NCBI GenBank assembly: GCA_020848455.1
Contig: JADLAB010000490.1
Span: 1 to 46,503, forward strand
Direction: 5' to 3'
Origin: Polyangiaceae bacterium
GTDB lineage: Bacteria > Myxococcota_A > Polyangia > Polyangiales > Polyangiaceae
DNA length: 46,503 nucleotides
Every line of letters begins with the position of its first letter. Within the stretch, counting starts at the first letter, position 1. A program made the translations under genes and the position numbers. Under the pieces are notes generated by a model. The model made no database searches and was not told the origin of the DNA. It saw only the letters and a program-made list of their open reading frames with translations. Positions 29,910-38,553 of the stretch are shown one piece after another.

Positions 29910-30386
29910 ATGGCCCGCGTGCCCGCCGCCCGCTCCGCGACGCCGCTCGTCGAGGCGATCCGCGCCCGCGGGCTGCGCGCCACGGCGCCCCGCATCGCGG
30001 TCCTCGAGCTCTTGGGCCGCGCGCGCACGCCGCAGAGCCACGCCACCATCGCCGAGGCACTCGTCGGCTCGGGCTGGGACCGGGCGACCATCTACCGGAA
30101 CCTCGTCGCGATGACCGAGGCCGGCCTGCTGCGCCGCGCCGACCTCGGCGACCACGTGTGGCGCTTCGAGCTGCGTCGCCCGGGTCCGGGCGCGCGGGCC
30201 CCCGCGCACGAGCGGCCCGGGCGCACCGTGGAGCACCCGCACTTCCTGTGCGACAGCTGCGGCGAGGTCACGTGCCTCTCCGACAGCGCGGTCGAGATCC
30301 GCGCGGGCGCCGCGGTGCCCCGGGCCGTGCGGCGCAAGCGCGTCGCGATCCAGATCCAGGGCCGCTGCGACCGCTGCGCGCCGTGA
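29910..30386 (+). CDS. Fur-family metalloregulator, probably Zur-like
   Basis: 158 residues. Winged-helix DNA-binding domain: TAPRIAVLELL, HATIAEAL, then DRATIYRNLVAMTEAGLLRR (57-76). Metal-binding C-terminal domain: EHPHFLCDSCGEVTCL (His109, His111, Cys114, Cys117) and CDRC (Cys153, Cys156), the structural Zn site. Fur, Zur, PerR and related repressors share this layout, and the sequence alone does not separate them. The neighbourhood (a ZIP-domain transporter 100 nt downstream and a ZnuABC-like operon converging on it) argues for a zinc sensor. It is inferred to repress these genes when metal is sufficient. Confidence 0.9.
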   Translation: MARVPAARSATPLVEAIRARGLRATAPRIAVLELLGRARTPQSHATIAEALVGSGWDRATIYRNLVAMTEAGLLRRADLGDHVWRFELRRPGPGARAPAHERPGRTVEHPHFLCDSCGEVTCLSDSAVEIRAGAAVPRAVRRKRVAIQIQGRCDRCAP

Positions 30387-30431
30387 GCCCCGGCGCGGTG
30401 CTCGCGGCCGCTCCGCGGCACCGGCGTTATC

Positions 30432-30444
30432 GCAACACGGTTGC
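30432..30444. promoter_or_regulatory. Inverted repeat before the ZIP-domain gene, candidate operator
   Basis: GCAAC-ACG-GTTGC, a perfect 5-bp inverted repeat with a 3-nt centre, lies 45 nt upstream of the preferred GTG start and 46 nt after the Fur-type gene. It could be a binding site for that regulator. The same repeat was not found before the znu-like operon, which weakens the idea. Confidence 0.3.
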
Positions 30445-30488
30445 AGGAAGCGCTTGATCGCCTCGCCGGGCCGCGCGAGGCTCCGCCG

Positions 30489-32258
30489 GTGCTGTGGCTG
30501 GTGCTCGGGCTGTCGCTCGTCGGGCTCGCGCTCGGTCCGGCCCTGTATGCCGTGGGGCGCGCCCGCCCGGGCCCGGCCGCCGTGCTCGACGGGCTGACGC
30601 TCGGGCTGGTGCCGGCGCTCGTGGTGCTGAAGCTCCTGCCGCACGTGGTCGAGGACGTGGGCCTCGGCGCCGTCGGGCTCGCCGCGCTCGGCTACGGCGT
30701 CGTGTGGCTGGCCGACCGCCGGAGCCACGACCTCGAGGCGCGCGTGGGCCGCTCGCTCGTGGTCCCCGCCCTGGTGCTGCACGCGGCAGTCGACGGCGCC
30801 ACGCTCGGGCTCGCGACCGGCGGCGGCGCGGAGCCCGGGGGCGCGTACCTCGCGCTCGCGGTGCTCTCGCACCGGATGCCCGAGGGCCTCTTCCTCGCCA
30901 ACGCGCTCGTGCCCGCGCTCGGCTGGCGCGGCGCGCTGCTGCGGATCGGCTCGAGCGGCGCGGCCACCGTGGTCGGCGCCGCCCTCGGACGAGGGGCGCT
31001 CGGGGCGCTGCCCATGAACGCCATCCAGGGCCTCGTGGCCCTCGGGCTCGGGGCGATCTTGCGGCTCGTGGCGCACGACCACGGCTCGGCGCGGCACACG
31101 GCCGCCACGCGACGCCTCGGCGCCCTCGGCCTCGGGCTCGGCGCCTTCGTGGCCCTCGCCCTGCCCGATCCCGAGAGCGTGCTCACGCGCGCCACGCCGG
31201 GCGAGCTGCCCATGGTGGACTCCTTCGTGGCCCTGTTCGCGGCCGTCGCGCCCGCCGCCATCGTCGGCGTCGTCGCCAGCGCGCTCGCCCGCGCAGGGCT
31301 GCGCAGGCGGCGCGATCGCGCGGCCGCTCCGTCCGCGTGGCTGAGCGCGCTCGCCTGGCCGCGGGATGGACGCGCCGCACGCCGCGCGCTCGAGGCGGGG
31401 CGCGCGGCCGGTGCCGGACCGGTGGCGCTCGGGACGACCGCGCTCGCCGCCGCGGCGCTCGATCCGACCGCCGTGCTCGCCGCAGCCTTTCTCCTCGGCC
31501 CGGAGGCTGCGCTCGCCTGCGCGGGGGCGACGCTCGCGCTCGGCGCTGGAGCGCTCGCCGCGCGCCCGCGGGTGCACCCGGGCGAGCACCTCGAGGCGCA
31601 CGAGCCGACGCGGTCGGGCAGAGCAGCCTCCGACCTTCGCGGCGCCGCGCGCCGCGCGCTCGAGGACACGGGCGGCCCGTGGGTAACCGGCGTCGCGCTC
31701 GCGGCGGCGCTCGAGGCGTTCGTGCCCCCGGGGACGCTCGAGCCCCTGGCGCTCGGGCCGGCGGCGGTGCGCGCCGCCGTGGGGAGCTTCGCCCTCGCCC
31801 CTCGCCCGTCCGCGCTCGTCCCGGTGCTGGCAGTGCTCGTGCACAAAGGTCTACCCCTCGAGGCCGCGTGCGCGGCGCTCGCCTGCGCCCCGGCCGGGAC
31901 ACGCCTCGCGGCCGGGGTCGCGTGGCGCGCACGGCGCGCTCGGCTCGCGCTCGGGCTCGCGCTCGCGGCGGCGCTCGGCGGCGTGTCGGGCGCGCTCCTC
32001 GTCCTCGCCATGCACCCCGCGCCCGCCACGCGCGACTGGCACGCGCTCTTGTCCGGCGCGCCGGACGCACTCGGCCTCGCGACGACCGTCGCGTTCGCCG
32101 CGTGCCTCGCGGCGAGCCTCGTCTGGCGCGGCCCGCGCCCCTGGGTCGGGCAGGAGCCGCACGTGCACCGAGCAGGCGGAGACGGGCCGCACCCCGCGAG
32201 CGGCAGGACGCACGATCACGAGCACGCCAGCGACCCGGCTGGCGACAACCACCCGTAG
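30489..32258 (+). CDS. ZIP-domain metal transporter fused to permease-like domain, His-rich tail
   Basis: 589 residues from GTG 30489 (GAGG 8 nt upstream); an in-frame TTG at 30441 would add 16 residues. About 14-16 hydrophobic segments. The first half carries ZIP metal-site motifs: LHAAVDGATLGLA and, one helix later, VLSHRMPEGLFLANAL. ZIP proteins move Zn, Fe or Mn into the cytoplasm; canonical ones have 8 helices and about 250-300 residues. The second half, after an Arg-rich loop, has GTTALAAAALDPTAVLAAAFLLGPEAAL and HKGLPLEAACAALACAPAGT, reminiscent of YraQ/ArsP-type (DUF318) permeases. The last 30 residues contain eight His (HVHRAGG..HDHEHAS..NHP). A two-transporter fusion is inferred; confidence is lower for the second half. 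Confidence 0.85.
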   Translation: MLWLVLGLSLVGLALGPALYAVGRARPGPAAVLDGLTLGLVPALVVLKLLPHVVEDVGLGAVGLAALGYGVVWLADRRSHDLEARVGRSLVVPALVLHAAVDGATLGLATGGGAEPGGAYLALAVLSHRMPEGLFLANALVPALGWRGALLRIGSSGAATVVGAALGRGALGALPMNAIQGLVALGLGAILRLVAHDHGSARHTAATRRLGALGLGLGAFVALALPDPESVLTRATPGELPMVDSFVALFAAVAPAAIVGVVASALARAGLRRRRDRAAAPSAWLSALAWPRDGRAARRALEAGRAAGAGPVALGTTALAAAALDPTAVLAAAFLLGPEAALACAGATLALGAGALAARPRVHPGEHLEAHEPTRSGRAASDLRGAARRALEDTGGPWVTGVALAAALEAFVPPGTLEPLALGPAAVRAAVGSFALAPRPSALVPVLAVLVHKGLPLEAACAALACAPAGTRLAAGVAWRARRARLALGLALAAALGGVSGALLVLAMHPAPATRDWHALLSGAPDALGLATTVAFAACLAASLVWRGPRPWVGQEPHVHRAGGDGPHPASGRTHDHEHASDPAGDNHP

Positions 32259-32359
32259 CGATCGACCTCGGCCTCGGCCCGCACGTGGCCGCGACGGGCG
32301 GCTTGTTGTGCACCGACCCGACGGACGTGTTCGTCGCGAAGTTCGCCCCGCCGCCGTGA
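32259..32359 (+). pseudogene. Possible remnant of a DVFVAKF-repeat surface protein
   Basis: Directly after the ZIP gene stop, in another frame, about 34 codons read VAIDLGLGPHVAATGG then LLCTDPTDVFVAKFAPPP and a TGA at 32357-32359. The DVFVAKF ending is typical of the last repeat of secreted beta-propeller (SBBP-like) proteins of myxobacteria. No start codon, upstream repeats or ribosome site belong to it. It may be a decayed 3' end, or coincidence. Confidence 0.3.
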
Positions 32360-32366
32360 CGAGGCC

Positions 32367-33281
32367 TCAGCCGCGGGTGTCGCCGGTCGGCGCGGCGCCG
32401 GGGCGGCCGCGCCCGCGCCGCAGCGAGACCGCGAGCCGGTAGCCGGAGCGCAGCACGAGCGCCGCCAGCGCGAACCCGCACGCGAGCCCCGCCTGCGCCC
32501 CACCTACCGGCAGGTCCCAGAAGAACGCGCACAGGTAGCCGAGCACGCCGGACAGCGCCCCGACCGCAGCTGCCACCACGAAGGCGGCGCGCACCCCCGA
32601 GCCGAGGAGCAGCGCCGTGAGCGCCGGCATGGTCGAGAACGCGAAGACCGGCAAGGCGCCGAGCGCCCGGGCGCTCACACCCACCATGATGCCGATCGCG
32701 AGCAGCACCGCGGACGAGAGCGCCGTCACGGGGAGTCGCTGCACCCGGGCGGCGACCGGGTCGAAGCTCGCGAACACGAGCCCGCGGTGGAGCGCGAGCT
32801 GCAGGAGCAGGACGGCCGCCCCGACGGCGAGGACGAGCGTCAGGTCGAGCGGGCGGACGAGGACCGCCGTGCCGAAGAGGATCGACTCGATGTCGTGGGC
32901 CTCCTGGGTGATGCGGCTGCCGAGCACGACGGTGGCCCCGCCCGTGGCCGCGAACACCCAGCCGAGCACGCTCTCGCGGCTGACGCCGAGCTTCTTCGGG
33001 TCGAAGAGCAGGAGCAGCGTCGCGCCGAGCGCGGCCGCGGCGGCGCCGAACACGGGGTCGAAGGCGAGCCCGAGGTGGATCTCGGCGTAGAAGGAAGCCG
33101 CCACGCCGAGCGCGGCCGACTGCGTGACCGCGGCGCTCACGAACACCATGCGCCGCAAGACGACGTAGACGCTCAGCATGCCGAGCACGGCGCCCGCCGC
33201 GAAGGCGCACGCGATCGGGTCGCGGAACAGCTCCCACGCGACCACGAAGTCGTCCCAGGTCGGCGCCGCTGTGGGCGTCAT
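32367..33281 (-). CDS. Metal ABC transporter permease (ZnuB/MntB family)
   Basis: 304 residues with about eight hydrophobic segments. ABC-3 family features: DPIACAFAAGAVLGMLSVYVVLRRMVF near the N-terminus, VTQSAALGVAASFY, and SVLGWVFAATGGATVVLG in the middle. It forms the inner-membrane channel for metal delivered by the binding protein. The ATG overlaps the ATPase stop (ATGA). The basic C-terminal tail (SLRRGRGRPG) is cytoplasmic. It is the last gene of the operon and converges with the ZIP-fusion gene across 108 nt. Confidence 0.93.
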   Translation of the reverse strand: MTPTAAPTWDDFVVAWELFRDPIACAFAAGAVLGMLSVYVVLRRMVFVSAAVTQSAALGVAASFYAEIHLGLAFDPVFGAAAAALGATLLLLFDPKKLGVSRESVLGWVFAATGGATVVLGSRITQEAHDIESILFGTAVLVRPLDLTLVLAVGAAVLLLQLALHRGLVFASFDPVAARVQRLPVTALSSAVLLAIGIMVGVSARALGALPVFAFSTMPALTALLLGSGVRAAFVVAAAVGALSGVLGYLCAFFWDLPVGGAQAGLACGFALAALVLRSGYRLAVSLRRGRGRPGAAPTGDTRG

Positions 33282-34036
33282 GCGAGCTCTCCTCGCAGGC
33301 GCCGGTAGAGCGCGCCGCCGGCCACCTCGGCGCTCGGGCCATGCACCACGCGCCGTGCGGGGCGATCGAACACGATGAGCTCGTCGCAGTTCCGTTCGGC
33401 GAGCTCGAGCGCGTGGGTCACGAGCACGACCGCCATGCGCTCGCCGTGCGCCAGCCGCGCGAGCTCGGCCACCGCCTCGCGCTCGCCCTCGACGTCCATG
33501 GCCGCCGTCGGCTCGTCGAGGAGCGCGAGGTCGGCGCGCGTGGCGAGCATGCGGGCGAACAGGACGCGCTGTTGCTGGCCCTTCGACAGATCGCGAAAGC
33601 GCCGCCGCGCGAGGCCCGCGACGCCGACCGCCTCGAGCGCGCCCGCGACCACGCGGCGGTCCTCGGCCGAGGCCCAGGGCCGGAGGAAGCTCGTGCCCGT
33701 GAGTCGTCCCTGCGCGACCACGTCGCGCGCGGACAGGGGCAAGATGGCGTCGAGCCCCGCCGACTGGGGCACGTAGGCCATGCGCAGCCCGGGCGCCGAG
33801 CGCTCGACCCGGCCCGCGACCGGCCGCAGCAGGCCGAGCAGGGTCTTGAACCAGGTCGACTTTCCGCTGCCGTTGCGGCCGAGCACACCCACGAGCGTGC
33901 CGCGGCGCAGCTCGAGATCGAGCGGCGGCAAGAGGCCCTCGCCGCGGTAGCCGACGACGAGCGAACGACAGCGCAGGAGCAGCTCGCCGGGCCGCGCCGC
34001 CCCGGCCGTCGCAGAGGTCGCCGCCGCGCCGCTCAT
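33278..34036 (-). CDS. Metal ABC transporter ATP-binding protein (ZnuC family)
   Basis: 252 residues. Walker A GRNGSGKST (53-61), Q-loop YVPQSAGLD, signature LSKGQQQR (150-157, the usual LSGGQ with Lys for Gly), Walker B LALLDEPTAAMD (170-181) and the switch His in VLVTHALEL. It energises the ABC-3 permease encoded next. ATG 34036 overlaps the stop of the unknown lipoprotein gene by 4 nt; longer open reading upstream belongs to that gene's region and is ignored. Specificity for zinc is inferred from neighbours only. Confidence 0.94.
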   Translation of the reverse strand: MSGAAATSATAGAARPGELLLRCRSLVVGYRGEGLLPPLDLELRRGTLVGVLGRNGSGKSTWFKTLLGLLRPVAGRVERSAPGLRMAYVPQSAGLDAILPLSARDVVAQGRLTGTSFLRPWASAEDRRVVAGALEAVGVAGLARRRFRDLSKGQQQRVLFARMLATRADLALLDEPTAAMDVEGEREAVAELARLAHGERMAVVLVTHALELAERNCDELIVFDRPARRVVHGPSAEVAGGALYRRLRGELA

Positions 34037-34905
34037 TCGTCGCTCCACTCGACGGTCACGCCGTAGCTCCAGCGCTCGTCGAGGGCCGCGGCCAGGCTCG
34101 CCTGCGCGGCGCTCCGCGCGGGCTCGCCGTCGAGGCCGAGGAGTGCGCGGGCGTCGAGGCCGTCGAAGGCGGACGTCGCGGCGGCGAGACCGACGCCGAG
34201 CACGAGCCGTGGCGACGCGTCGCGATCGACCGTCGCGTCGAGCAGGGCGCCGTAGACGCCCGCGCCGGGCCGTGCGCCGCCGAGCGCGGCGAAGTCGAGG
34301 GCGAGCTCGAGCACCGCCGGCCCCGGCCCGCCGATGCGCGAGGGGACCTGCGCGTCGCGCACCTCCGCGGACAGGGTCAGCGTCGCGAGCTCGAGCCGCG
34401 CGAGCCCGAGGTACCCCGCCCCGAGCTCGCAGCGCGCCGCACCGCAGTCGAGTCGCACGCTCGCGCCGCCCTGCGCGTCGAGCGAGGCCGGACCGAAGAC
34501 GAGCACGGCGCGCGGGCTCGCCGCCGCGCCGCCGAGCTCCGCGGGCATGTCCGCGTAGGCGACGGCGCGGCCGTCCGTCGCGCGACACACGCCGAGCGAG
34601 CAGCTCTGGAAGCCCGCCGGTGGGGCCGCGGGGTCGAAGACGCCCGCCGCATCGGGGCTCCACGCCTCGAGCACGAGCGCCTCGACGCCGACTCGGAGGT
34701 CCGCGAGCCGCAGCTCGAAGCCTCCGTCGAGCGCCTCGAAGCCGTCCCCGAGCGCGCGCTCCGAGAGCGGCGCGTACCCGGCCGCCGCGCTCGCCTCGAC
34801 GACCGCGAAGGGCTCGCCGGGGCCGAAGGCGCAGCCGGACAGCGCGACCGCCGCGCCGAAGACCGCCCCCGGCGCGCGCAGAGGACGAGCCGAGCGCGCG
34901 GTCAC
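34033..34905 (-). CDS. Unknown lipoprotein embedded in metal ABC operon
   Basis: 290 residues from GTG 34905, overlapping the binding-protein stop by 4 nt and the ATPase start by 4 nt. The signal ends AVALSGC (lipid Cys25). The mature protein is acidic, Ala/Gly/Leu-rich and looks mostly beta, with four cysteines in CSLGVC and CGAARC that could form disulfides. Almost no His is present, so it is not an obvious metal sponge. I do not recognise the family, and it is not part of the standard ZnuABC set. Its position between the binding-protein and ATPase genes makes a role in metal uptake likely (chaperone, barrel partner or assembly factor), by association only. Confidence 0.82.
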   Translation of the reverse strand: MTARSARPLRAPGAVFGAAVALSGCAFGPGEPFAVVEASAAAGYAPLSERALGDGFEALDGGFELRLADLRVGVEALVLEAWSPDAAGVFDPAAPPAGFQSCSLGVCRATDGRAVAYADMPAELGGAAASPRAVLVFGPASLDAQGGASVRLDCGAARCELGAGYLGLARLELATLTLSAEVRDAQVPSRIGGPGPAVLELALDFAALGGARPGAGVYGALLDATVDRDASPRLVLGVGLAAATSAFDGLDARALLGLDGEPARSAAQASLAAALDERWSYGVTVEWSDE

Positions 34906-35810
34906 GGCCGGATGCTCTCGAGCTTCTGCGTCAGCGCCTCGAGGTAGGCGAAGTAGCTCTGCCCGCCCTCGAAGTCGGCGCCCGACGGCAGGACCACGAG
35001 CGCGGCGCCGCTCTTCTCGGCCACGAGCGCCGAGCTCTCCTCGGGGTAGTAGCTCTCCTGCAGGATGGCGCGCACGTTGCGCTTGCGCGCCGTCACGAGA
35101 AGCTTCGCCACGTGTGCGGGCGTCGGGGGGATGCCGGGCTTCGGCTCCACGTAGTCGACGAGCTCGACGCCGAGCCAGTCGGCGAGGTAGGGCCAGCTCT
35201 TGTGGTAACCGATGATCGGCACGCCGCGGAGCCGCGCGAGCCGCCCCTCGACCGCCGCGCGCGCCTCGCGGAGGCGGCTCTGGAACTTCTCGAGCCGCGC
35301 CTGGAAGAACGCGGCCTCGGCGGGGTCGAGCTCGCCGAGCCGCCGAGCGACGCCCTCGGCCACCGTGCCGGCCGCGCGCGGATCGAGGAGGTAGTGCGGG
35401 TTGCCGTCCGGGTGCACGTCGCCCTGGCTGCGGTCGGCGTTCTGCGACACGTCGAGGACGCGCACGAGCCCGGAGCAGTCGAGGTAGCCGTGGGCGCCGA
35501 CCTGGATGTCCGCGTTGCGCGCCCCGGTGAGCAGCGCCGGCAGCCAGCCGCTCTCGAGACCCTGCCCCACGACGAGCAGGAGCTCGGCCTGGTTCAGCTC
35601 GAGCGCGAGGCTCGGCTTGGCGTCGACGAAGTGCGGATCCTGCGTCGGCAGGCTCAGCGAGACGACCTTGATCTTGGACCCGCCGATCGCCTTCGCCAGC
35701 GCGGCGAGGGTGGGCACGGTGGTGACGACCTTGACCTCGGCGCGGGCGAGCGCGGGCGCGAGGAGCGTGGCGAGCGCGACGGTGAGGGCGACGAGCAGCT
35801 TCTGAATCAT
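34902..35810 (-). CDS. Metal-binding protein of ABC transporter (ZnuA/MntA family)
   Basis: 302 residues. Sec signal to about residue 24 (LATLLAPALARA). The mature protein is a cluster A-I binding protein: TTVPTLAALAKAIGG, QDPHFVDAKPS with His60, HPDGNPHYLLDP with His133/His139, GYHKSWPY with His203, and QESYYPEE with Glu252. Together these make a metal site. The long His/Asp-rich loop of E. coli ZnuA is missing, so Mn or Fe cannot be excluded. It picks up metal in the periplasm and hands it to the permease. It starts 50 nt after the outer-membrane barrel gene, with GAGG before the ATG, and is coupled (GTGA) to the lipoprotein gene. Confidence 0.92.
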   Translation of the reverse strand: MIQKLLVALTVALATLLAPALARAEVKVVTTVPTLAALAKAIGGSKIKVVSLSLPTQDPHFVDAKPSLALELNQAELLLVVGQGLESGWLPALLTGARNADIQVGAHGYLDCSGLVRVLDVSQNADRSQGDVHPDGNPHYLLDPRAAGTVAEGVARRLGELDPAEAAFFQARLEKFQSRLREARAAVEGRLARLRGVPIIGYHKSWPYLADWLGVELVDYVEPKPGIPPTPAHVAKLLVTARKRNVRAILQESYYPEESSALVAEKSGAALVVLPSGADFEGGQSYFAYLEALTQKLESIRP

Positions 35811-35859
35811 GGCAACCTCGGACGGTGTGGGCGGGGCGGCCCCGCGGCGGACGAGCGAG

Positions 35860-37293
35860 CTAGAAGGCGTGTGCGCCGTGACTCCCGGTCACGGTCTCGA
35901 GCTGGAGAAAGCCGGCCCAGGTGGGCCGCTCGAGCCAGCGCGGCACGTCGACGGAGCCCTGGAGGCGGAGGCGCGAGAACTCCGTGGGCCAGAAGGTGAC
36001 GGCCGCGCTCGCGCGGTGGCGGTCGGCGGCGTGGCCGGGGTCGAGCGGATCGACGACGCGCGCGCCGGAGCGATTCTGGGTCGCCGTCGCGTACTCGTAG
36101 CGCAGCGCCGCGCCCCAGCGCTGCTCGAAGCGGTAGAAGAGCTGCGCGTAGCCGCCCACGTCCACGAGCACGTCGTCCGGCACCTGCCGCCGCCGCAGCA
36201 TCCACTCGCTCTGGAGCGACACGACCGTGAAGCTCTGGCGCGTGATCGGGCGGTACTTCAGATAGAGGTCGGTACCGAAGACGTCGGTGCGGCTGTGGCG
36301 CCCCGAGGGGTTCGGGCCGTTCGCGGCCGACACGCCGAAGAGCAGCGACCAGTCGTCCGACAGGTCGAAGAACTGCTTGACCGCAAGGAGGTTCTCGAGG
36401 TCGATGGGCGAGCGCACGCCGAGATCCTCGGCGCCGTAGAAGCTGCGCGCGGTGCCGTCGCCCGCGGCCCGCGTCGTCGAGCCGAGGATCTCCACGTACC
36501 AGGGCAGAGGCAAGAGCACCGAGAGCTCCGCTCCGAGGCCCCGGTTGCCATCGCCGCCCCACACCTTGCTCCAGAAGAAGGGCTGGTCGGCGAAGTCCCA
36601 GCCGTGCGGGTGGGTCGCGTTGATGCGACCGAAGCGCGTGAGCAGCTGGCCGGCGCGCAGCTGGAGGTTGGCCGGCAGATCCAGCGTCGTCGCGTAGGCC
36701 TCCTCGACCTCCACCCCCTCGAGCGTGAAGACGAGGTTCGCGTCGAAGCGGAAGTACGGATCCACCGATTTTCCGAGCGACAGCTCGACCTGCTGCAGGT
36801 TGAAGCCGCTCGCGCTGGGGTCGTGGCCGCCGGCCTGCAGCGGCTCCTCGGTCGAGAACGCCGCGAGCGCCACGTCGAGCACGACGGAGATGTCGGGCAG
36901 GAAGGCAGCGGCGCCCGCCGGCACCGGCACGGGCAACGGGGCCTTGCCGCTGCCCGAGTCGCCGAGCCCGCCGCCGCGCCCGGCGTCGTCGAGGGTCCGT
37001 GCGTCGGCCCCCGTGGCGCGCTCGATCTCGGCGAGCTCCTCCGGCGTGAGCTCGCCCCCGCCGACGTCGGGCTCGTGTGGCGCGGCGGGCGGACCGCTCG
37101 GCGCACCGGGCGCGCTCGGCGTGGTGGGCACCGGCGGCGCGGCCGGTGGCACGGGTCCGCCCGGAGCGTCGGGATCGAAGGGATCGCCGCCGGGCGCGGG
37201 CTGCGCCCGAGCCGGCGCGACCGCGAGCGCGCTCGTGAGCCCCGCGATGAGGCCGAGCGCCGAGCGGCCGATGGCACGGTGTCTGTGTCGCAC
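35860..37293 (-). CDS. Outer-membrane beta-barrel protein, metal-uptake associated
   Basis: 477 residues from GTG 37293, with GAGG six nt upstream. A signal peptide (IGRSALGLIAGLTSALAVAPARA) is followed by a Pro/Gly/Ala-rich segment of about 100 residues with a short acidic helix (ELTPEELAEIERATG). A porin-like barrel then begins around ISVVLDVALAAF and shows alternating strands ending in aromatic residues, such as DPYFRFDANLVFTLEGVEVE and LQLRAGQLLTRFGRIN. The C-terminus ends in HAF, the terminal-Phe signal of outer-membrane barrels. No TonB box or plug domain was seen, so this is not ZnuD. Related barrels are often encoded next to metal-binding ABC proteins. A channel feeding metal to the periplasm is inferred. 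Confidence 0.85.
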   Translation of the reverse strand: MRHRHRAIGRSALGLIAGLTSALAVAPARAQPAPGGDPFDPDAPGGPVPPAAPPVPTTPSAPGAPSGPPAAPHEPDVGGGELTPEELAEIERATGADARTLDDAGRGGGLGDSGSGKAPLPVPVPAGAAAFLPDISVVLDVALAAFSTEEPLQAGGHDPSASGFNLQQVELSLGKSVDPYFRFDANLVFTLEGVEVEEAYATTLDLPANLQLRAGQLLTRFGRINATHPHGWDFADQPFFWSKVWGGDGNRGLGAELSVLLPLPWYVEILGSTTRAAGDGTARSFYGAEDLGVRSPIDLENLLAVKQFFDLSDDWSLLFGVSAANGPNPSGRHSRTDVFGTDLYLKYRPITRQSFTVVSLQSEWMLRRRQVPDDVLVDVGGYAQLFYRFEQRWGAALRYEYATATQNRSGARVVDPLDPGHAADRHRASAAVTFWPTEFSRLRLQGSVDVPRWLERPTWAGFLQLETVTGSHGAHAF

Positions 37294-37557
37294 GTCGATC
37301 CTCGAGCCCGATGCTGATCGTCCGGAGCCGCCGGCACGCACGCGGGCGCGCACGGCGACTCCCTGCCCTCGAACCTCTCGCGCCCAGCGCATGGCCGCGC
37401 TTGCGCGGTCAGGGGACGCGTGCGCCTCACGGCGCGAGTCGGGACCCGGCCTGCGTCGCGTGGACGGCAGCCGGTGTCGTTCGGGGCGCGCGCGCACGTG
37501 CGCGCGCGGTGCTCGCCAACGGCGGAGGCCCGGAGCCCCCAGGACGAGCGCGGACGA

Positions 37558-37995
37558 CTAGACCGGTGGCGAGGTCTTCGGAGCGAGCCCGAGCAGCGAG
37601 CGACCGGGGAGCGCGAACGGCACGTCCGGCGGCAGCGGCAGGAGGAACCCGTCGAGCACGACGGGCTCGCTCGCGCACCGCACGTCGGGCGCGACCTGCT
37701 GCATGGCGAGCGCGTCGCAGTGCTCGTGCTCGTCGCCGTGAGCCGCCCCGACACCCGCGGCCGGTGCGCCGCGCTTGTCGGTGGGGGTCGCGGTCGCGGC
37801 GACGCCCGCGCCCGGCACGGCGTGGCCCCCGTGGACCATGAGCCCGTGCTCGGCGCAGACGGCGTGGCGCCCGAACACCATGTGCGCCGCGAGCGCGAAC
37901 TGCGCCACGCACAAGAGTGCGGTCACGCCCGCGAGGACGAGCGCGCGCGTGTGCGCGCGTCGCCTGCTCAGCCCTGGCCGCCCTGCTCCACGCAT
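37558..37995 (-). CDS. Small membrane protein with His-rich exported segment
   Basis: 145 residues from ATG 37995. One hydrophobic segment (ALVLAGVTALLCVAQFALAAH, about 20-40). After it come RHAVCAEHGLMVHGGHA and HGDEHEHCD, giving about nine His and three Cys in 60 residues, then a hydrophobic Pro-rich C-terminus. The His/Cys pattern suggests metal binding at the periplasmic face; I do not recognise a named family. It lies 264 nt upstream of the barrel gene on the same strand, so it may be the first gene of the metal-uptake operon or independently controlled. The intervening 264 nt show no clear promoter or operator. Confidence 0.75.
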   Translation of the reverse strand: MRGAGRPGLSRRRAHTRALVLAGVTALLCVAQFALAAHMVFGRHAVCAEHGLMVHGGHAVPGAGVAATATPTDKRGAPAAGVGAAHGDEHEHCDALAMQQVAPDVRCASEPVVLDGFLLPLPPDVPFALPGRSLLGLAPKTSPPV

Positions 37996-38124: not shown

Positions 38125-38553
38125 CTACTGGGCCGGGGCGCCCGGGATGCAGGCGCCCGCCACGCAGCCGTTGCCCGGCTGGCAGTCGGCGGCGCTGCCG
38201 CACGGCATCGCGCACTTCTGCATCTGCAGGTTGCACCGGTGCGTGAGGCAGCCGGCGTCCGCCTGGCAAGGCGGCGCGAGCGGGTTGCCGCCGGTCGCCG
38301 GAGGCGGCTGCTGCGGGTAGCCCTGCTGCGGGTAGCCTTGCTGCGGGTAGCCTTGCTGCGGGTAGCCCTGCTGCGGGTAGCCCTGCTGCGGATAGCCCTG
38401 CTGCGGCTGCGGATTGCCGTAGATCGGGTTACCGCTCGGGTCGTAGCCCACGACGACCTGCCCCGGCTGCGGAGCCTGGGCGGGGTCCTTGCGGCACGCC
38501 GCGAGCACTGCGAGGGACACCAACGCGATCGCCGAGACGCTCTTCCAGCCCAT
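38125..38553 (-). CDS. Lipoprotein with PQQGY pentapeptide repeats and Cys-rich C-terminus
   Basis: 142 residues. The signal ends AVLAAC (Cys20), and GGAGCG precedes the ATG. Residues about 52-84 are six copies of QQGYP plus flanking PQQ, a flexible Gln/Tyr/Pro-rich segment. The C-terminal 45 residues have eight Cys in pairs ([28 protein letters not shown]), probably a compact disulfide-bonded module like those in other myxobacterial surface proteins. The repeats are encoded by near-identical 15-bp units. Function unknown. Confidence 0.85.
38308..38409 (-). repeat. 15-bp tandem repeat (CTGCTGCGGGTAGCC units)
   Basis: Six full 15-bp units, 38308-38397, then a degenerate seventh that breaks off at 38409. 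They encode QQGYP in the minus-strand lipoprotein. Units differ by single substitutions only, so recent expansion is likely; unit gain or loss keeps the frame. Confidence 0.92.

Follow-up and report, generated by a model that had tools for sequence, protein, structure and literature searches.

Two means are credited with bringing scarce zinc across the outer membrane: TonB-dependent receptors and unspecific porins. The locus described here raises the question of whether a zinc-uptake operon can bring its own entry through the outer membrane, one that would work without TonB. The window, that is, the whole stretch of DNA analysed (46,503 nucleotides), is one entire contig from the draft genome (9.2 Mb) of a Polyangiaceae bacterium. 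A previous reading of this DNA from its letters alone (the sequence-only reading) had placed eight genes within positions 29910-37995 and had taken them for a metal-acquisition island. All eight were confirmed as open reading frames, and the description as a metal-acquisition island was borne out, with zinc as the most likely metal. Our favoured explanation, which we consider somewhat better than evenly probable, is a Zur-linked system for zinc uptake in which a dedicated barrel protein, designated OMB here, would serve as the way through the outer membrane.

Organization of the gene cluster

On the + strand, a D-aminoacyl-tRNA deacylase gene is followed directly by genes encoding a Fur-family regulator (29910..30386) and a ZIP-permease fusion protein (30489..32258). 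The - strand carries, from 37995 downward, genes for HisM, a small His/Cys-rich membrane protein (37558..37995); OMB (35860..37293); a predicted periplasmic zinc-binding protein of the ZnuA/AztC type (34902..35810); a lipoprotein of an unnamed family (34033..34905); an ABC ATPase of the ZnuC/AztA type (33278..34036); and an ABC permease of the ZnuB/AztB type (32367..33281). Coordinates of successive genes from ZnuA through the lipoprotein and ZnuC to ZnuB overlap by 4 bases each, 49 bases separate the end of OMB from ZnuA, and the gap between HisM and OMB is 264 bases. Because of these overlaps and the short OMB-ZnuA spacing, the genes from OMB through ZnuB, at least, look like a single operon.

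The ABC transporter and its probable metal

The ZnuA-type binding protein (Pfam ZnuA, E 3e-47), the ABC-3 permease (E 1e-31) and the ATPase (ABC_tran, E 8e-25) make up the gene set of a ZnuABC/AztABC transporter within one operon. The closest curated models were AztA (the best NCBIfam match of the ATPase, E 3e-50; 170 of the 220 bits required), AztB (E 1e-20; 74 of 280 bits) and AztC (88 of 350 bits), and since all three scores were below the cut-offs, the transporter was filed as a relative of Azt rather than as Azt itself. It has the same binding protein, ATPase and permease as the ZnuABC and AztABC(D) systems, but its operon adds an outer-membrane barrel, a lipoprotein of a family with the motif CHxGHCH, and HisM.

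The genome has no PF01297 match besides this ZnuA protein, and the operon is therefore likely to be the high-affinity ABC route. The closest relative of ZnuA among solved sequences is Synechocystis ZnuA (1pq4), and in the alignment to that protein a histidine occupies the third-ligand position. As a rule, manganese proteins carry glutamate at this position. Zinc is the probable substrate, judging from the matches to AztABC and ZnuA and from two features described below, a ZUR-like box and, in a relative, a neighbouring CobW-type gene.

Conservation and spread of the cluster

OMB was found in 120 and the lipoprotein family in 53 of the 235 genomes of the phylum. Gene neighbourhoods were compared at 58 OMB loci, 22 of which came from a scan of the contigs of named genomes and 36 of which were chosen for family diversity from the 120 OMB genomes; L098 and L024, and likewise L109 and L021, appear to be the same contigs, leaving about 56 distinct loci. 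Across the phylum, 56 of the 58 loci have a ZnuA gene on the downstream side of OMB, the two exceptions being L087 and L118, and the spacing is 129 bases or less in 52. This pairing, together with the single PF01297 match in the genome, indicates that the linkage is not due to chance. Genes for both ZnuA and the lipoprotein adjoin OMB in all 22 scanned loci, which span Myxococcus, Corallococcus, Pyxidicoccus, Archangium, Hyalangium and several MAGs (one labelled Cyanobacteria), and gene order was unchanged in the 36 neighbourhoods chosen for diversity. An OMB was present no more than 5 kb away for 43 of the 46 longer lipoprotein matches; this count was based on 57 OMB positions among those listed and on 58 of 61 listed lipoprotein positions.

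The synteny search thus upheld the linkage assumed in the sequence-only reading for part of the island: HisM, OMB, ZnuA, the lipoprotein, ZnuC and ZnuB form a conserved core, whereas a regulator and ZIP fusion next to the Znu operon were seen in no locus but the window and, partially, the closely related L004. The laboratory organism Myxococcus xanthus (L012) also has this core.

Outside of the phylum, the gene order OMB, ZnuA, permease recurs in records of a Sulfurovum mangrovi plasmid, where OMB bears the annotation hypothetical protein, and of Vibrio campbellii. Both of these OMBs end in GAHGAHAF, like most in the phylum. In the MAG labelled Cyanobacteria RYN_339 (L022:8001-14450), two OMB genes flank one Znu set.

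The outer-membrane barrel

OMB of the window, which ends in GSHGAHAF, scored above cut-off for none of the families in Pfam or NCBIfam (BBP2, E 0.002) and had no sequence relative in the PDB. Neither it nor three relatives matched the Plug or TonB receptor barrel families of Pfam at E values up to 0.1 and 1. Histidines at positions 157, 228, 230, 472 and 475 of the window protein are invariant in a 15-row alignment, and a C-terminal ending of the HxxHx[F/Y/W] type was found in 52 of the 58 loci.

The AlphaFold model of OMB is weak (pLDDT 49.7, from a shallow alignment), with a better C-terminal half. The solved structures nearest to this low-confidence model were 16-strand porins (Foldseek E 2e-6), and the best porin match had a VIA Z of 17.7 and an rmsd of 3.5 over 250 aligned residues. 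Chitoporin, OmpT and OprO/OprP matched at Z 16-18 over 240-280 residues; they differ from OMB, as far as a model of this confidence allows comparison, in sharing only 6-15% identity with it and in the conserved His motifs that OMB has. TonB receptors were absent among the best 50 matches listed by either fold search, an absence that by itself excludes nothing. On the basis of the porin matches of the model, OMB is read as a porin-like barrel, and its histidines may line a path for zinc.

ZnuD-type TonB-dependent receptors provide zinc entry through the outer membrane of Gram-negatives, the role proposed here for OMB, but OMB is shorter, has no match to Plug or receptor domains, and gives a porin-like model. 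MspD of Mycobacterium smegmatis is a porin reported to be Zur-regulated and to contribute, alongside ZnuABC, to zinc homeostasis (PMC13098993); Msp porins are mycobacterial octamers. In Zur regulons, one porin, OprD, is named (PMC6103462). The ZepA system of cyanobacteria was considered as a match and rejected, as it is a different protein with PEP-CTERM (PMC10957091). No zinc porin or OMB-like barrel family in Myxococcota was named in the literature searched, which consisted of CC-licensed PMC papers.

The regulator and a candidate Zur operator

The regulator (Pfam FUR, E 1e-10) carries a FUR domain with CxxC zinc motifs, as do Zur proteins of the Fur family, and is read as Zur-type; the NCBIfam Zur model, which describes enterobacterial Zur, was not reached (PRK11639, 12.7 of 167 bits). 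The motif HPHFxCxxCGxVxCL is common to the regulator and to the Fur proteins linked to OMB or to ZIP fusions in L024, L116, L119, L122, L123 and L158, and is absent from the other two Fur proteins that the genome encodes.

Between the Fur gene and the ZIP fusion lies the palindrome TCGCAACACGGTTGCAG (30430..30446), a candidate Zur operator 43 bases 5' of the fusion gene, for which an alternative in-frame upstream start at 30441 is possible. The palindrome was spotted by eye in the window, and the published ZUR box was found afterwards: it resembles ATGCAACnnnGTTGCAT, reported by Rodionov and co-workers for two Desulfovibrio genomes (PMC545781). With up to two mismatches, it is the sole match to TTGCAACNNNGTTGCAA in 9.2 Mb (one place, against two places for the reversed control). 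Following the sequence-only reading, an operator common to 30489, 37293 and 37995 was looked for and not found: the only site in the window with three or fewer mismatches precedes 30489, and none precedes HisM or OMB.

In a genome of the same genus (G235), letters identical to TCGCAACACGGTTGCAG occur between the D-Tyr-tRNA deacylase and ZIP-fusion genes. Operator-like sites were also found 57 bases before the ZIP-fusion match in G234, 191 bases before the OMB match in G009 (locus L152 places this site at the start of the gene), and, in G057, immediately upstream of a CobW/COG0523-type gene that adjoins OMB, ZnuA and the lipoprotein. Most relatives had no upstream site that stood out from shuffles. 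In G159 and G234 the strict pattern had as many matches as its reversed control; its counts were close to those of the control in G139 and G219 and fell below them in G102, G066, G068 and G141. The looser pattern gave mostly background matches. The argument for the operator rests on the position of the sites and not on the number of matches. The sequence features suggest that the regulator may act as Zur on the site before the ZIP fusion, and it might also control the OMB-Znu operon of this genome.

In L158, which is from G234, a genome of the same order, the region at approximately 1-2040 has a palindrome (TTGCAACTCTATTGCAA) between a Fur gene related to that of the window and a Plug-domain gene. 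OMB was not found in G234, and perhaps the TonB receptor and OMB replace each other across genomes.

The ZIP-permease fusion

By itself, the fusion protein of the window matched only ArsP_1 in Pfam (E 0.0086), with no match to Pfam Zip or to the SO_0444 Cu/Zn efflux model (NF033936), and its relatives made the family clear. Such relatives were found in 71 of the 235 genomes, mostly not beside OMB, and among 19 aligned members the SO_0444 model was matched by 16, ArsP_1 by 17 and Zip by eight. SO_0444 Cu/Zn efflux and ZIP transporters correspond to the two halves of the family, which differs from both in having the halves joined in one protein. The window copy retains the ZIP motifs of TM4 (HxxxD, as HxxxDG) and TM5 (HxxPE, as HRxPEG) and has lost the motifs CSCG, CASGATP and GPATN that are found in the efflux half of relatives. 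The simplest reading of these motifs is that the fusion is a ZIP importer with a decayed export half of the ArsP_1/SO_0444 type.

The lipoprotein and HisM families

The lipoprotein, which has a lipobox-like LSGC by eye, matched no Pfam or NCBIfam family. Its relatives are characterized by the motif FDPxxPPPGYxxCHxGHCH, present in the form CHx[GDN]HC[HD] in 34 of 37 lipoprotein loci. The motif is reduced to CSLGVCR in the lipoproteins of the window and of L004, and L025 and L090 show none. Because the histidines of the motif are lost, the window lipoprotein probably does not bind metal as its relatives would. Its model (pLDDT 81) is a beta-sandwich with MbnP as the best fold match (Z 7.8, the next match being 6.5; Foldseek E 0.05). 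Pfam gave no match to the MbnP domain, and profile comparison of the two families gave a probability of 0.2% with the cleaned set, similar to controls; a set that included one spurious frame gave 1.6%, and a global-mode value of 29.7% was not relied on. A relation to MbnP is treated only as a lead from the model.

HisM belongs to no Pfam or NCBIfam family. Its N-terminal part includes a hydrophobic segment, its C-terminus reads APKTSPP, and it contains Cys/His motifs. A HisM-like gene with a PK..PP tail lies upstream of OMB in 25 of the 58 loci, and L099 adds one by profile. Neither HisM nor a like gene was found upstream of OMB in 33 of the 58, four of which have fewer than 160 bases upstream.

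The proposed route and alternative explanations

In the proposed route, zinc would pass the outer membrane by way of OMB, the porin-like barrel with its invariant histidines; periplasmic His/Cys proteins, namely HisM and, in the majority of relatives, the lipoprotein with CHxGHCH, would catch it and hand it to ZnuA; and ZnuBC would pump it inward using ATP. The Fur-family protein would act as Zur on the operator before the ZIP fusion, and the fusion, its efflux half decayed, would work as an importer. This reading is supported by the OMB-ZnuA pairing, the HxxHx-aromatic ending, the spread of OMB, the proximity of the lipoprotein, the Sulfurovum and Vibrio loci, the lack of a receptor domain in OMB, its porin-like model, and the likeness and positions of the operator sites. 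Counted against it are the lack, in the window, of an operator upstream of HisM or of OMB, the motif loss in the window lipoprotein, the 33 of 58 loci in which HisM was not found, the low pLDDT of OMB and the manganese and iron carriers among ZnuA-family proteins. A putative entry through OMB without TonB, as the sequence-only reading had supposed, is the best reading of these data, and with nine Plug-domain matches elsewhere in the genome zinc could also be taken up by a route that uses TonB.

Those nine matches, the porin-like model, and the adjacency of a Zur-family gene, an operator-like site and a Plug-domain gene in G234 would also suit a general porin that is merely located in a zinc operon, as zinc passes any porin and TonB receptors elsewhere would then do the high-affinity work. 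We regard such a bystander as unlikely, because both the near-constant pairing with ZnuA in loci of three phyla and the conserved His-rich C-terminus of OMB exceed what would be expected of one. An island for zinc balance rather than for uptake alone, with the fusion acting as an exporter under a regulator that turns on efflux, appears equally improbable: 16 of the 19 fusion relatives match the Cu/Zn efflux model, but in the window copy the motifs of the efflux half are gone while those of ZIP remain. The resemblance of the operator to the Nur boxes of Streptomyces, which are repeats of a similar TTGCAA type, the inclusion of manganese and iron binders in the ZnuA family and the copper-linked MbnP as the best fold match of the lipoprotein model could point to an operon for another metal (manganese, iron, nickel or copper). 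This we consider quite improbable in view of the best sequence matches to AztABC and ZnuA, the histidine at the third-ligand position aligned to 1pq4, and the CobW/COG0523 neighbour with an operator in G057.

If the preferred reading of a zinc-uptake system with entry through OMB is extended beyond this genome, OMB may represent a third outer-membrane route for zinc, a zinc-selective, TonB-free porin family in at least three phyla, whose own periplasmic relay, made up of two unnamed families of metal-binding proteins, would deliver zinc to ZnuA. We put this forward tentatively, as possible but short of an even chance. The occurrence of OMB in half of the sampled genomes of the phylum and outside of it, beside ZnuA at 56 of 58 loci and with invariant histidines, makes a dedicated TonB-free entry directly testable, and the OMB, HisM and lipoprotein families gain a first functional context.

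Additional genes and motifs

A segment of the form FDPxNPPPGYxxCHxxHCH...SYxQ is also present at the N-terminus of FKBP-type lipoproteins in all 11 of the loci L166-L176 (for example L166:2746-3540, +). It was found in no Pfam model, and the three proteins carrying it that were scanned all contained FKBP_C. The segment is a module, probably metal-binding, that Znu-linked and FKBP-type lipoproteins share. In G057, a short His-rich protein is encoded after the lipoprotein gene and before the CobW-type gene (L140:983-1483, +). Upstream of HisM in the window, a small lipoprotein-like open reading frame with GYPQQ repeats and a Cys-rich end (38125-38553, -) was found, among the 22 loci, only in L004.
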